A DNA stretch of 64,000 nt, taken from NCBI RefSeq assembly GCF_029910235.1, contig NZ_CP112874.1:3472001-3536000 (forward strand), read 5' to 3'. The DNA is from Pseudanabaena galeata CCNP1313. Its GTDB lineage: Bacteria > Cyanobacteriota > Cyanobacteriia > Pseudanabaenales > Pseudanabaenaceae. Positions 53,950-63,085 of the stretch are shown one piece after another (the first letter of the stretch is position 1; every line of letters begins with the position of its first letter). A model generated the notes under the pieces. That model was not told where the DNA came from and made no database searches. It worked only from the letters and a program-made list of their open reading frames with translations. Both the position numbers and the translations under genes were made by a program.

Positions 53950-54011
53950 TTTGCTTAGTTGTTTTCCAAGCGAATCTAATCATATACACTTATTGCACTA
54001 CTTGCAAGAGG

Positions 54012-54060
54012 AATTTCAAAAAAATCAGAGATGCTAAGCATCTCTGATTTTTTTGAAATT
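54012..54060 (-). terminator. Palindrome overlapping the last codons of the CPBP gene
   Basis: Perfect 23-bp arms 54012-54034 and 54038-54060 (AATTTCAAAAAAATCAGAGA...). The right arm encodes the gene's last seven or eight residues (NFKKIRDA) and the stop sits in the loop. Confidence 0.9.
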
Positions 54061-54903
54061 CTGAAAGCCGATCGCGATCGCGCTTAAAAAAACAATTCCC
54101 ATCACACCTGCGATCGGATTGCCATGAATACCAGTTACCCATTCAGGCACAGCGCCTGTTGGTTTTAGCCAATGGGTCGTATTGACGATGTAATAACACC
54201 AAACCAAGCCACCATGTAAGCCCACTGAGATCCCTAATCTGCCATCACATCTGCGTCGGGCAAGTACTAAAGCAACACTAAGCATCACCAAACCGAGAAA
54301 TTGGCTCCATGTTTCGAGAATTACATTTAGAGGCTTGATAAAGTGCAAAATCGCAAATACTAAACTGCAACCCAGTAAAGCCGTATTTTTGGAATAATCG
54401 CGCTCTAGCTCCGATAGCACCCAACCACGAAATAACATTTCCTCTGCAAATCCCACACCAACAGAAGTCAACAGCCCTGGCAATATTGCCCCTTGCCAAT
54501 CGACAAAATACACGCCGATCGCTGGTAGTAGGTTGTCTGGTAAGGGCTGCTGCCAAGTGACAGTTTGCACTGATAGCCAACCTAGACTCACCTGTAGTCC
54601 AAAGAAAATAATTAGGGTCACGCATCCTAGTCCCAAGCCAAACAAAAAATCGCTGCCATTTTGGCGAGTAAATGACAAACCGTAATAGCGATAGGGATGC
54701 GAATATTTAGCGATTTTGCGTCCCCAGAACCAAATTAATCCCAAAAATCCGCAATACAACAAAATTGTCAGTGCAACCCCAACCGCCTCACCCCAAATTA
54801 AATACATTGGTGCAGCGATCGGTAGCCATAGCACCAATAAAGTTAGTAAAAACAGAATGATGCGGGCTGGTGCTGGATAGGAATTTAAGCGATCGAGATT
54901 CAC
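54034..54903 (-). CDS. CPBP-family intramembrane metalloprotease
   Basis: A 289-residue protein with seven or eight membrane helices. The CPBP (Rce1-like) motifs are AEEMLFRGWVLSEL (EE-x3-R) and AILHFIKPLN (H), with GLHGGLVWCYYI as the last motif. The family includes prenyl-CaaX-like proteases and bacteriocin immunity proteins; the role here is unknown. The C-terminal codons form part of a palindrome. Confidence 0.88.
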   Translation of the reverse strand: MNLDRLNSYPAPARIILFLLTLLVLWLPIAAPMYLIWGEAVGVALTILLYCGFLGLIWFWGRKIAKYSHPYRYYGLSFTRQNGSDFLFGLGLGCVTLIIFFGLQVSLGWLSVQTVTWQQPLPDNLLPAIGVYFVDWQGAILPGLLTSVGVGFAEEMLFRGWVLSELERDYSKNTALLGCSLVFAILHFIKPLNVILETWSQFLGLVMLSVALVLARRRCDGRLGISVGLHGGLVWCYYIVNTTHWLKPTGAVPEWVTGIHGNPIAGVMGIVFLSAIAIGFQNFKKIRDA

Positions 54904-59114: not shown

Positions 59115-61280
59115 GTGAGACCAGAAGAGTCATCCACTCTTGAGATCAAAGAGATGCTTCATCACGTACTTACGGTTGAAGATCCACAAGGTTTTCGCAA
59201 TTTTCTCTTGAATAATATGACCTATTCTTTGGGACGAAGCTTGGGTAATTCAATAATTCTGCGGTCTAATCTTGTATCTCGCCAACATGCAACTTTGTTA
59301 GCGGTAACCTCAAAGAAGTCTTCATGCTTTTTCCGAATAATTGACGGCAGTATAGATGGAAAACGTAGTACGAATGGGATTTTAATTAACGGTCGAAAGA
59401 GATTTTCGCATATATTATCCCATGGTGATGAAATTCTATTTAGTAAGGATACTAAGGCGGTGTTTCAGGTAATCAGTGCGATTACTAATATTCCCAAAAT
59501 CAATATTTCTCAAAATCAGATTACTAAAAGCAGCTATCCTCATCTAAATAATCAACCCTTTGATGAGACTGAACTGTTTCGGTTTTCTCCTTTACAGTCT
59601 ATTCTTGATCAAGATTTATCAGCGCATGTTCATAAGACTGTAAATCAATTCATTTCATCACCTGAGTTAAACCCGCAACCAATTATTGAGTTAAATCTCG
59701 TTGGCAAAATCTTATATCTTAATCCTGCGGCGTTGACTCAATTTCCTGATCTTGAAGAGAAGAGAATTCGCCATCCTTTGCTGCAAGAACTGTTAGTGCA
59801 GTTAGTGACATTGGTTAATCCTGTCAGCCAATTTTTTGTGCGAGAGGCGATGATCGATGACAAGGTATTTGAAGAAATTATCTATTTTATGCCTTGGAAT
59901 GAGGTCATTCGTATCCACATAGCTGATGTGACTAAACAAAGACAAGCAGAAGCGATTATTGCTTATCAAAGTCATCATGACACATTAACAGGGCTACCAA
60001 ACCGAAAATATTTGCATGAACATTTGGTTGAAGTTATCAACAAGTTAGAAGATAAAGAGCAGCAATTTTCAGTTTTATTTTTGGATATCGATCGCTTTAA
60101 GTTAATAAATGATTCTCTAGGACATAGCGTTGGTGATTTGTTGCTAAAAGCTGTGAGCGATCGCCTCAAGAGTTTGCTGAAGCAGGGTGATTTAATGGTG
60201 CGTTGGGGTGCTGATGAATTTGCGATCGTGGCTATGGAGATTCATTCTACGGATGCCGTTGTTCAATTTGCTGAAGCCATGATTCAGTCTTTGACTTTAC
60301 CTTTTAATTGTGGTGGTCATGAACTCCATATCACTACCTGTATTGGTGCAAGTATTTATCCAGATCATCATACTGAAGTTGAGGGTCTAATTCGGAATGC
60401 AGATATGGCTATGTATCGGGCTAAAGCTGAAGGACAGAATAGTTTTCAGTTCTATGTTCCGAATATGCAGGAGCAGAGTTTTCAGCGCTTGTCCATGGAA
60501 AACAATCTGCGAAGAGCGCTAGAAAACAACGAATTACTTACCTATTATCAACCTCAAATCGATCTTTGCACTGGCAAAATTGTGGGCTTGGAAGTATTGC
60601 TGCGTTGGAAACATGTTTCTTTAGGGTCGATTCCACCGAGTCAATTTATTCCCCTTGCCGAAGAAACAGGGCTAATTACGGCGATCGGATCTTGGGTATT
60701 GCGACAAACTTGCTTACAGGCGATCGCATGGCAAAATATGGGTTTACCGCCGATTCAAGTTGGTGTAAATTTGTCGATCAAGCAACTTCAGCAAAAGGAC
60801 TTTCTATCTTGTTTACAACAAATTCTTGAAGAAACAAATCTTGATCCGCATTTTCTAGAACTAGAAATTACTGAAGGGATCATGATGGATAATGTGGAAG
60901 AAAAAATTATCTTGTTAAATGAATTCCGTCAGATGGGCATTCAGTTGTCAATTGATGATTTTGGAACTGGTTACTCGGCTCTAAGTTATTTGAAAAATTT
61001 GCCCATTGATACGCTAAAAATTGACCGTATTTTTATTGAATACGTTACTCACAGCGCACACGATCGCACAATTGTCGCTTCGATTATTAATTTAGCCCAT
61101 AGTTTAAATTTGAATGTGATTGCTGAAGGTGTGGAAACGATAGAGCAGGTGGATATATTGCGATCGCTTGGCTGCGATCAGATCCAAGGTTATTTTTTCT
61201 ATAAAGCTTTGCCAGCAGACGAAATTGAGGTTTTGTTAAGGGCGCAAGGTGTAACTAAACCGAATAAAATCGAACCATAA
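59115..61280 (+). CDS. FHA-PAS-GGDEF-EAL protein
   Basis: A 721-residue cytoplasmic signalling protein. An FHA domain comes first (about 15-120: YSLGRSLGNSIILRSNLVSR, QHATLL), then a PAS-like segment (about 180-280). GGDEF has LTGLPNRKYLHEHL, LFLDIDRFKLINDSLGHSVG and RWGADEF where GG(D/E)EF is expected. EAL has LEVLLRWKH, LELEITEGIMMDN and SIDDFGTGYSALSYLKNLPI. The EVL variant is common in active enzymes, so a phosphodiesterase with a weakened cyclase is likely. Start is GTG 59115 with AAAGGA upstream; ATG 59154 is the alternative. Confidence 0.88.
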   Translation: MRPEESSTLEIKEMLHHVLTVEDPQGFRNFLLNNMTYSLGRSLGNSIILRSNLVSRQHATLLAVTSKKSSCFFRIIDGSIDGKRSTNGILINGRKRFSHILSHGDEILFSKDTKAVFQVISAITNIPKINISQNQITKSSYPHLNNQPFDETELFRFSPLQSILDQDLSAHVHKTVNQFISSPELNPQPIIELNLVGKILYLNPAALTQFPDLEEKRIRHPLLQELLVQLVTLVNPVSQFFVREAMIDDKVFEEIIYFMPWNEVIRIHIADVTKQRQAEAIIAYQSHHDTLTGLPNRKYLHEHLVEVINKLEDKEQQFSVLFLDIDRFKLINDSLGHSVGDLLLKAVSDRLKSLLKQGDLMVRWGADEFAIVAMEIHSTDAVVQFAEAMIQSLTLPFNCGGHELHITTCIGASIYPDHHTEVEGLIRNADMAMYRAKAEGQNSFQFYVPNMQEQSFQRLSMENNLRRALENNELLTYYQPQIDLCTGKIVGLEVLLRWKHVSLGSIPPSQFIPLAEETGLITAIGSWVLRQTCLQAIAWQNMGLPPIQVGVNLSIKQLQQKDFLSCLQQILEETNLDPHFLELEITEGIMMDNVEEKIILLNEFRQMGIQLSIDDFGTGYSALSYLKNLPIDTLKIDRIFIEYVTHSAHDRTIVASIINLAHSLNLNVIAEGVETIEQVDILRSLGCDQIQGYFFYKALPADEIEVLLRAQGVTKPNKIEP

Positions 61281-61327
61281 AAAAGAGAAGCGGCGCAATG
61301 CGCCGCTTCTCTTTTTTATGGTTCGAT
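61269..61327. terminator. Palindrome spanning both stops of convergent genes
   Basis: Perfect 28-bp arms 61269-61296 and 61300-61327 with loop AAT. Each arm contains ATC GAA CCA TAA, so both genes end in Ile-Glu-Pro-stop. A-run and T-run flank the GC core, giving a bidirectional terminator. Confidence 0.95.
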
Positions 61328-63085
61328 GCTGAGCCACAATCTTAGGTTTAGCTCTTGGTTGGGTGAAGGATTGGTAATTTGGACTAGATCGAAATGATTA
61401 CAGATGGGAGCTTGTAAAGTAACCTCAACAGTATTTAACAAGTCTTGCTGGAAAGTGGTAACGGTAATCGTTTCACCCGATGTGTAATCACGGAGGCGAT
61501 CGCTAAAGTTTTCTGCCGTGACTCGAATTCCTGCGATCGCGATTACCATGTCACCTGTGCTAAGCCCAGCCTTTTGAGCAGGTGAGCCAAACTCAACCTT
61601 CTCAACTTCCGCAAGCCCATTTTTAGTTTTCAGCGTCATCCCCGTGAAGGGAATGTCTTGGCGAGATGTGCGTAATTCTAGTCCGAAGGGTTCGAGATAA
61701 TAGTTATAGTCCAGTTCTTTTGTACCGTAGAGGTAATCATTCCAGAAATTAGATAGGTCAACACCTGCGACGGTCTCGATGACTTCATGGAGTTCTGCTT
61801 CGCTAAAGCCAATCTCTTCTTTCCCAAAGCGCTCCCACATAATCTGCATGACCCGATCAAGCGATCGCAGATTATTAGTTTTAGAACGAATTAGTAAATC
61901 TAGCAGCAGCGATACTAATTCCCCTTTAAGGTAGTAGGAAATTTGGTTGTTGTGGGTATTTGGATCAGGACGATAGAGCTTAATCCATGTGTCAAAACTA
62001 GAATCATAGAGGGATTGAACATTGCGTCCAAAGGTTGTTTGCAGACGAGTAATGGCTTTGCTGACTAGTTTGAGATAATGCTTAGCATCGTAAAGCCCAG
62101 CCCGAAGCGGGAAAATTTGGTCATAATAACTGGTAGTTCCTTCGCTAAACCAAAGTGAACTAGTGTAATTCTCATTGTCGTAATCAAATTTTTCTAGGGC
62201 TTTAGGACGAATCCGTTTTACATTCCATGTATGGAAAAACTCGTGGGCAACGAGATTCATAAACTGGAGATAGCTCTCTTCTTTGCGAAAGCCTAAACGG
62301 TTGTAGAGCAGGACGGTGCTATTTTTATGCTCTAGTCCGCCAAATCCATTGCTAGTATGAAGAATAAAGTCATAGCGATCGTAGGGTAAGCCTCCAAATA
62401 TTTCCGCCTCCACAGCGACGATCGCTGCCGTATCTTTCACAATACGCTGCATATCTGCATTATGTTGTCCCCAGACGACAAAGCTATGGGGTTTATCCAG
62501 AACTGTGAATTCATAGCGCTGATGCATCCCAATCTCAAAGGGACTATCAACTAAAGTGTCAAAATCCTTGGCATAGAAAGTATGCGTAGCATTCTCAAGT
62601 GCTGGTAAAGCTGTCGCAATTTGCCAATTATCTTTGATCTCGCCAATCTCGACGGTATAGGGTTGTTGCTGATGTTCGGTCACGTACATAAATACGGCTG
62701 CACCAGTCAAAAAGGCATGGGTGCGATCGATATGATTAGTACGGACGGTTAATTCATTGCAGAAGATGCGATAACGAATTTTGATGGTTGAATTAATGAT
62801 CGAATTATTGGGATGATCGCTATTAATTGCACATTTCACCTGCCAATGGTTTTTACTGATTTTTTGCCACGAGAGAGGAGTTCCCGACGCATCAGTTGCC
62901 TCAAAATCTTGCAGATGTTTGGCATATTCACGCACCAAATAGGAACCAGGTGTCCAGACTGGCAACTTCAGATCGATAAATTCAGCTTGCCAATCAGCGA
63001 TCGCTAGTTCAACTTCTAACAGATGATTTTCTGGCTCTGGAATCGATAGACGGTAGTTAAATTGGCTGCTAGAAAAGTTTTTCAT
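61316..63085 (-). CDS. M61-family metallopeptidase with PDZ domain
   Basis: A 589-residue peptidase of the glycyl aminopeptidase (M61) family. The N-terminal beta-rich domain (about 1-165) precedes the metalloprotease core with HEFFHTWNVKRIRPKALEKF (HExxH) and the downstream Glu in LWFSEGTTSYYDQ. A PDZ domain lies at about 490-565 (EFGSPAQKAGLSTGDMVIAI). No signal peptide is seen, so cytoplasmic. It probably trims peptides with Gly or Ala at the N-terminus. Confidence 0.9.
   Translation of the reverse strand: MKNFSSSQFNYRLSIPEPENHLLEVELAIADWQAEFIDLKLPVWTPGSYLVREYAKHLQDFEATDASGTPLSWQKISKNHWQVKCAINSDHPNNSIINSTIKIRYRIFCNELTVRTNHIDRTHAFLTGAAVFMYVTEHQQQPYTVEIGEIKDNWQIATALPALENATHTFYAKDFDTLVDSPFEIGMHQRYEFTVLDKPHSFVVWGQHNADMQRIVKDTAAIVAVEAEIFGGLPYDRYDFILHTSNGFGGLEHKNSTVLLYNRLGFRKEESYLQFMNLVAHEFFHTWNVKRIRPKALEKFDYDNENYTSSLWFSEGTTSYYDQIFPLRAGLYDAKHYLKLVSKAITRLQTTFGRNVQSLYDSSFDTWIKLYRPDPNTHNNQISYYLKGELVSLLLDLLIRSKTNNLRSLDRVMQIMWERFGKEEIGFSEAELHEVIETVAGVDLSNFWNDYLYGTKELDYNYYLEPFGLELRTSRQDIPFTGMTLKTKNGLAEVEKVEFGSPAQKAGLSTGDMVIAIAGIRVTAENFSDRLRDYTSGETITVTTFQQDLLNTVEVTLQAPICNHFDLVQITNPSPNQELNLRLWLSIEP

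Follow-up and report, generated by a model that had tools for sequence, protein, structure and literature searches.

Two unrelated genes that converge in a Pseudanabaena genome end in the same three residues, and a perfect palindrome spans both of their ends. This common end is very probably the outcome of a template switch at a terminator-like hairpin that corrected a quasi-palindrome, and so would have moved gene ends between the neighbours, and in opposite directions in the source genome (labelled G000) and its sister G018. The window, which is the whole stretch of 64,000 nucleotides analysed, corresponds to G000:C1:3472001-3536000, and its features are collected in Table 1.

Table 1. Features of the window that bear on the shared gene ends (positions are counted from the first letter of the window)
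Feature	Position	Strand	Remark
FHA-GGDEF-EAL (c-di-GMP) gene, 721 aa, tail ...NKIEP before the stop	59115..61280	+	likely donor of the common end in G000; IEP also in G001, G007 and G009
Left palindrome arm: codons ATC GAA CCA, stop TAA (61278-61280), A tract, G+C core	61269..61297	+	
Right palindrome arm: identical letters on the - strand; last three M61 codons and stop (61316-61318)	61299..61327	-	
Terminator-like core: G+C stem flanked on both strands by a leading A tract and a trailing T tract	61277..61319		
M61 glycyl aminopeptidase-like gene, 589 aa, tail ...LSIEP before the stop	61316..63085	-	likely recipient
Perfect palindrome 25+1+25, overlapping the coding end of the gene at 54034-54903 by 25 nt	54011..54061		
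Rce1-like (CAAX endopeptidase family) gene, 289 aa, C-terminus ...FQNFKKIRDA partly inside the palindrome	54034..54903	-	

The two arms of the palindrome are 100% complementary over 29 nt each with a spacer of 1 nt, and each arm holds the TAA stop together with 9 coding nt of its own gene, GGDEF-EAL on the left and M61 on the right. The sequence-only reading of this DNA had taken the arms through both stop codons, which is correct, at a length of 28, which has to be replaced by the measured 29. It had also named a c-di-GMP protein and an M61 peptidase that both end in Ile-Glu-Pro, in agreement with the tails (...TKPNKIEP and ...LWLSIEP) and with the Pfam domains: FHA, GGDEF and EAL were matched in the former protein, and Peptidase_M61_N and Peptidase_M61 above the cut-off in the latter, where a PDZ match fell below Pfam's cut-off. 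Folded as RNA, the palindrome reaches -49.2 kcal/mol (z = -11.4), and none of 200 shuffles was equally stable. The terminator scan flags the core on the - strand only, with the T tract inside the symmetric arms; since the arms are symmetric, the + strand carries the same terminator-like core, which is possibly a bidirectional intrinsic terminator as judged from its letters.

That the genes share their ends by chance or through an assembly artefact is extremely improbable. Two-residue matches do arise between convergent partners (about 0.4 are expected in 116 pairs), but 20 dinucleotide shuffles of 400 kb of G000 gave altogether 2 palindromes with an arm of at least 14 nt, and the longest shuffled arm was 15 nt against the 29 nt found here. 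Hence, the palindrome is not a product of chance, as had been argued earlier for two unrelated genes, and related palindromes lie at this site in separate assemblies of three species.

The origin of the tail could be followed through the orthologs. Of the 26 genus genomes searched for the two genes, 25 carry M61, and these same 25 carry the GGDEF-EAL ortholog; G021 has only more distant GGDEF-EAL relatives. The GGDEF-EAL protein ends in IEP in four genomes (G000, G009, G001 and G007), in IEPA in G019, in IEPAQ in G011, in LEP in G013, and differently in the remaining 18 of the 25. The M61 protein ends in IEP in G000 only, in IES in G009 and G018, and in neither in the other 22, 12 of which end in SI or NI. 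Outside the genus, IEP was found at none of the 25 M61 tails read in other families (M61 was matched in 58 non-genus genomes). The GGDEF-EAL genes of G001 and G007 have the IEP end although their hairpins sit elsewhere in the gap. As IEP thus occurs in GGDEF-EAL orthologs that lack this palindrome and not in M61 orthologs, it is the GGDEF-EAL gene to which the tail is native, whereas M61 has it newly, most likely by copying from the former. The M61 genes of the near outgroups all end in Ser-Ile, written AGC ATC TAG in G019 and G011 and AGT ATT TAG in G024, and the palindrome boundary in G000 coincides exactly with the ATC codon found in G019 and G011 as well; the ATT of G024 at this position counts against the main explanation. 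The presence of IES on the M61 protein of both sisters implies that the transfer of IEP may have needed more than one step.

The site itself varies across the genus. The two genes are convergent neighbours by position in 20 of the 25 genomes, and the intergenic site was read in 18 of these, G013 and G002 being left out. In 5 of the 18 (G000, G018, G019, G015 and G010) the GGDEF-EAL stop falls inside a perfect arm of 8 nt or more, and in 2 of these (G000 and G018) both stops do; the rest have hairpins within the gap, hairpins imperfect at the stop, or none. The centres of the hairpin differ in length across the species compared. In G020 the gap holds an insert, itself containing a palindrome of 24+24 nt, which interrupts a hairpin that is intact in G015.

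The closest comparison is offered by G000, G009 and G018, which form one clade with a support of 100 in a tree built from both proteins with their tails removed; the branching inside this clade has a support of 33. Both arms of G000 read ATCGAACCATAAAAAAGAGA, which is the GGDEF-EAL version. In G018 both arms read CGAATCATAAAGAATAG, the M61 version, from CGAAT inwards, and its GGDEF-EAL gene has lost 10 nt relative to G000, so that the tail reads NHKE instead of NKIEP. G009 is mixed, with ATCGAACCATAAAAAAGAGA on one arm and ATCGAATCATAAAGAAGAGA on the other (2 mismatches in 20 nt with an insert set aside), and G000 and G018 are uniform for opposite versions. The insert in G009 (G009:C201) is about 140 bp long, lies between copies of a 12-bp direct repeat and splits the right arm; it resembles a small non-coding mobile element. 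The arms of G000 and G018 differ in 4 of 23 columns, by two G/T transversions and two transitions, and since both sets of arms are perfect, each of the four differences is present on both sides.

In G018 the GGDEF-EAL gene seems, from these alignments, to have received a copy of the M61 end, in the direction opposite to that in G000. The end in G018 could also have come about through a deletion between CGAA repeats of the GGDEF-EAL gene followed by substitutions, which takes more steps. With a support of 33 for the inner order, the M61 ancestor of the trio ended either in IES, which was corrected to IEP in G000, or in IEP, which decayed; likewise, G009 could be a decayed perfect palindrome instead of a precursor quasi-palindrome.

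The proposed course of events would start from a hairpin of presumed terminator function between the convergent genes, the ends of which would already have been partly inverted repeats of each other. During DNA synthesis, in replication or repair, the growing strand would fold back on itself or switch strands at the hairpin, and one arm would be replaced by a copy of the other, whether by hairpin-primed or by template-switch synthesis. In the G000 lineage, the GGDEF-EAL end would have been copied onto the M61 end as far out as the ATC codon present in both, whereby M61 would have gained, or been corrected to, Glu-Pro and both proteins would end in IEP. For G018 the copying would have gone the other way: starting at the shared CGAAT, the M61 end would have overwritten the GGDEF-EAL end in that lineage and turned NKIEP into NHKE. 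Such arm-to-arm copying accounts for the observed features in the fewest steps.

The same paired differences could be read as compensatory point mutations, in which selection for a strong bidirectional terminator stem would have each substitution matched by its partner. The core does resemble an intrinsic terminator, and several of the paired changes, including two of the four between G000 and G018, are transitions that could pass via a G-U intermediate. However, the 29-nt arms cross stops and codons for which termination should have no need, the two G/T transversions have their partners in the opposite arm, and the 23-nt arm of G018 matches M61 in full, with the 10 nt lost from GGDEF-EAL at the CGAAT that both genes share. 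Moreover, both mismatches stand together in G009, and its two sisters are each of a single version at both positions. Compensation is hence an unlikely account of the site.

Less likely still is the insertion of a palindromic mobile repeat (MITE or REP-like) between the genes, which would have brought both stops and both tails with it. The genome of G000 does hold several dispersed palindrome families with constant tips such as GGCGGCGC, which the inner core of the present palindrome resembles, and Y1 transposase-like genes are present (6 Y1_Tnp matches). Many copies of the same sequence would mark a dispersed repeat of this kind, but a genome-wide search for exact copies of the 33-nt core of the palindrome gave one match, and the outer arm is native GGDEF-EAL sequence that is found in G001 and G007 with the hairpins elsewhere. 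A mobile-element origin was rejected on these two observations.

Arm-to-arm copying thus stands as the preferred reading, and the fate of the earlier proposal can be given with it. That an inverted copying event had placed the 3' end of one gene onto the other is supported by the ortholog tails, and its hairpin-primed step would be one form of the event set out above. The comparison of C-termini that had been suggested points to the GGDEF-EAL gene as donor of IEP and to M61 as recipient. The finding named as fatal to the proposal, IEP on both proteins in distant genomes without the palindrome, was seen for GGDEF-EAL (G001 and G007) and not for M61. The inverted-copying reading is therefore supported with amendments: the transfer may have taken more than one step, it seems able to run either way, the core resembles a terminator, and perfect palindromes abound in the genus.

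A second convergent pair behaves alike. Outside the window, at G000:C1:3672818-3672862, a palindrome of 21+3+21 joins a cytochrome c-like gene (...YLKQL) and an RNase PH gene (...LLQIQL), both identified with Pfam. RNase PH was found in 25 of the 26 genus genomes, and a cytochrome c gene next to it was not found in two of these 25 (G010 and G003). The cytochrome c protein beside RNase PH ends in KQL in 23 of the 23 genomes read, and RNase PH ends in QL in 7 of 25 (G000, G009, G018, G011, G019, G015 and G013). In five genomes the last nine letters, i.e., two codons and the stop, are identical between the two genes, being CAATTATAA in two (G000 and G019) and CAACTATAA in three (G009, G018 and G015); the Leu codon differs synonymously in both genes together, with TTA in both or CTA in both. 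G011 and G013 are one letter off identity. Among the 21 pairs of these five hairpins, 3 changed on both sides and are paired throughout, 1 changed with one unpaired cell, and 17 are invariant. The RNase PH proteins of the outgroups G010, G016, G021 and G023 have, by eye, a Gln near the position of QL, so that only the Leu and the stop may derive from cytochrome c.

A third palindrome of the window (54011-54061) reaches into an Rce1-like gene, relatives of which are present in 24 of the 26 genus genomes; 16 of 19 selected were read. In the sisters G009 and G018 the protein ends in ...FHKK. Five of the 16 tails are of the FHKK/FQKK type (G018, G009, G013, G015 and G004), four of the FxNxKK type (G000, G020, G011 and G019), and seven are of other kinds. 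Within the FxNxKK type, 4 of 23 palindrome pairs changed, every one on both sides; within the FHKK/FQKK type, 1 pair changed on both sides and 1 has an unpaired cell. The palindrome types are discordant with the tree, which was counted against the main explanation, and since they do not follow the tree no direction is claimed for this site. The notion that the Rce1-like tail of the G000 lineage is a copy of its 3' flank was given up, as the palindrome types are scattered over the tree.

Palindromes are abundant in the genus. Perfect palindromes with an arm of at least 14 nt and a loop of at most 10 number 190 in 400 kb of G000 (G000:C1:3280001-3680000, the window included), or 4.75 per 10 kb. 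The count is 116 in 400 kb of 10 other genus genomes (2.90 per 10 kb, ranging from 1.5 to 5.5 by genome), 7 in 394,667 bp of 20 genomes from 17 other families of the class (0.18 per 10 kb), and 1 in 50 kb of E. coli. Arms of at least 20 nt occur 109 times in G000, 65 times in the other genus genomes, once in the other families and not in E. coli. The density in sampled Pseudanabaena is about 16 to 27 times that in the sampled other families of the class, the latter being represented by 15-20 kb each around the M61 gene and the genus samples partly likewise. ExoVII, SbcD and ExoI are nucleases that control hairpins. The loss of such nucleases as a cause of the palindrome richness found no support, for the ExoVII large subunit and SbcD were matched in all five genus genomes of the class sample.

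Over 1.2 Mb of G000 there are 529 palindromes with an arm of at least 14 nt; 48 of that arm length cover one stop, and 4 with an arm of at least 10 nt cover two. With genes called as plain ORFs of at least 90 codons, 116 convergent pairs lie at most 300 nt apart, of which one pair has three common last residues and one has two. At least two residues are hence shared by 2 of the 116 pairs, as against about 0.47 expected with shuffled partners, and tail sharing is by this count a rare outcome of a common structure.

The hairpins also differ between sisters in their loops. The commonest centres in the 400 kb of G000 are A, TTC, GAA, AAA, TTT and T, which make up 117 of the 190. When 35 hairpins of G000 that are syntenic with G018 or G009 were compared, both flanks were found in 29 comparisons; the sister had no perfect hairpin with an arm of at least 12 nt in 12, a dissimilar one in 3 and a similar one in 14, similarity meaning a plain string ratio of 0.6 or more, so that a few of the compared pairs may not be orthologous. 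Among the 14 similar hairpins, none kept the same loop, 6 had its exact inverse and 8 another loop, and the arms were identical over the compared length in 5. The six inverted loops, all at other sites, are two changes of GAA to TTC and four of single bases at three sites. It may tentatively be suggested, at somewhat less than even probability, that palindrome-perfecting is unusually active in Pseudanabaena, where it would rewrite the spaces after genes, overrun stops and keep yielding new C-terminal tails, including swaps between convergent neighbours.

The two genes provide a natural case in which unrelated proteins have common terminal residues that most likely stem from copying at the DNA level, and not from descent or protein selection, and three close species display the mixed state together with both uniform states. 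Two warnings follow for the reading of genomes: alike C-termini in convergent neighbours need not imply a common function, and paired changes in terminator-like stems are no proof of selection. Pseudanabaena is a promising genus for measuring the frequency at which hairpins rewrite coding ends.

Template-switch correction of quasi-palindromes is a known class of mutation, and Ripley is said to have described quasipalindrome-associated template-switch mutation in 1982. What is new here is the passing of C-terminal codons between two genes, the opposite outcomes in sisters and the palindrome density in sampled Pseudanabaena; in the titles and abstract openings of the papers listed, no such transfer of C-terminal codons from one convergent gene to another was reported. 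An imperfect repeat exists at the same site in a relative (G009), and several bases together match the opposite arm in G000 and G018, as is typical of quasi-palindrome correction. According to excerpts of a study on E. coli lacZ reporters, such correction is explained by arm-to-arm copying, and the present case is like it in that an imperfect inverted repeat is perfected with one arm templating the other; unlike the reporters, it is inferred from species comparison, runs across two stops, moves codons between genes and takes opposite directions in sisters (PMC7202029). Similarly, template switching in Saccharomyces cerevisiae, as excerpted, homogenises the arms of inverted repeats with multi-base protein changes and inverted spacers, and the introduction of the same paper mentions that short non-coding repeats of proteobacteria undergo template switching repeatedly (PMC8604942). 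Homogenised arms go with multi-base changes in proteins in both systems, but the yeast changes lie within genes, whereas in Pseudanabaena the two arms are the ends of two different convergent genes. Template switching is also described, in the parts of the source considered, as creating and maintaining RNA hairpins with perfect stems, concerted stem changes and loop inversions (PMC8794818); all of these have counterparts in Pseudanabaena, the loop inversions at other sites than this one, with template switching as the proposed explanation, although the hairpins there belong to microRNA and rRNA genes and the one described here resembles a terminator and extends into coding ends. Protein-coding sequence with perfect inverted repeats inside it is likewise known, from excerpts, in the mitochondria of Nematomorpha, where the repeats reach up to 284 bp (PMC6649704); those of Pseudanabaena are also perfect and coding, but they are short, bacterial and placed at the ends of genes.
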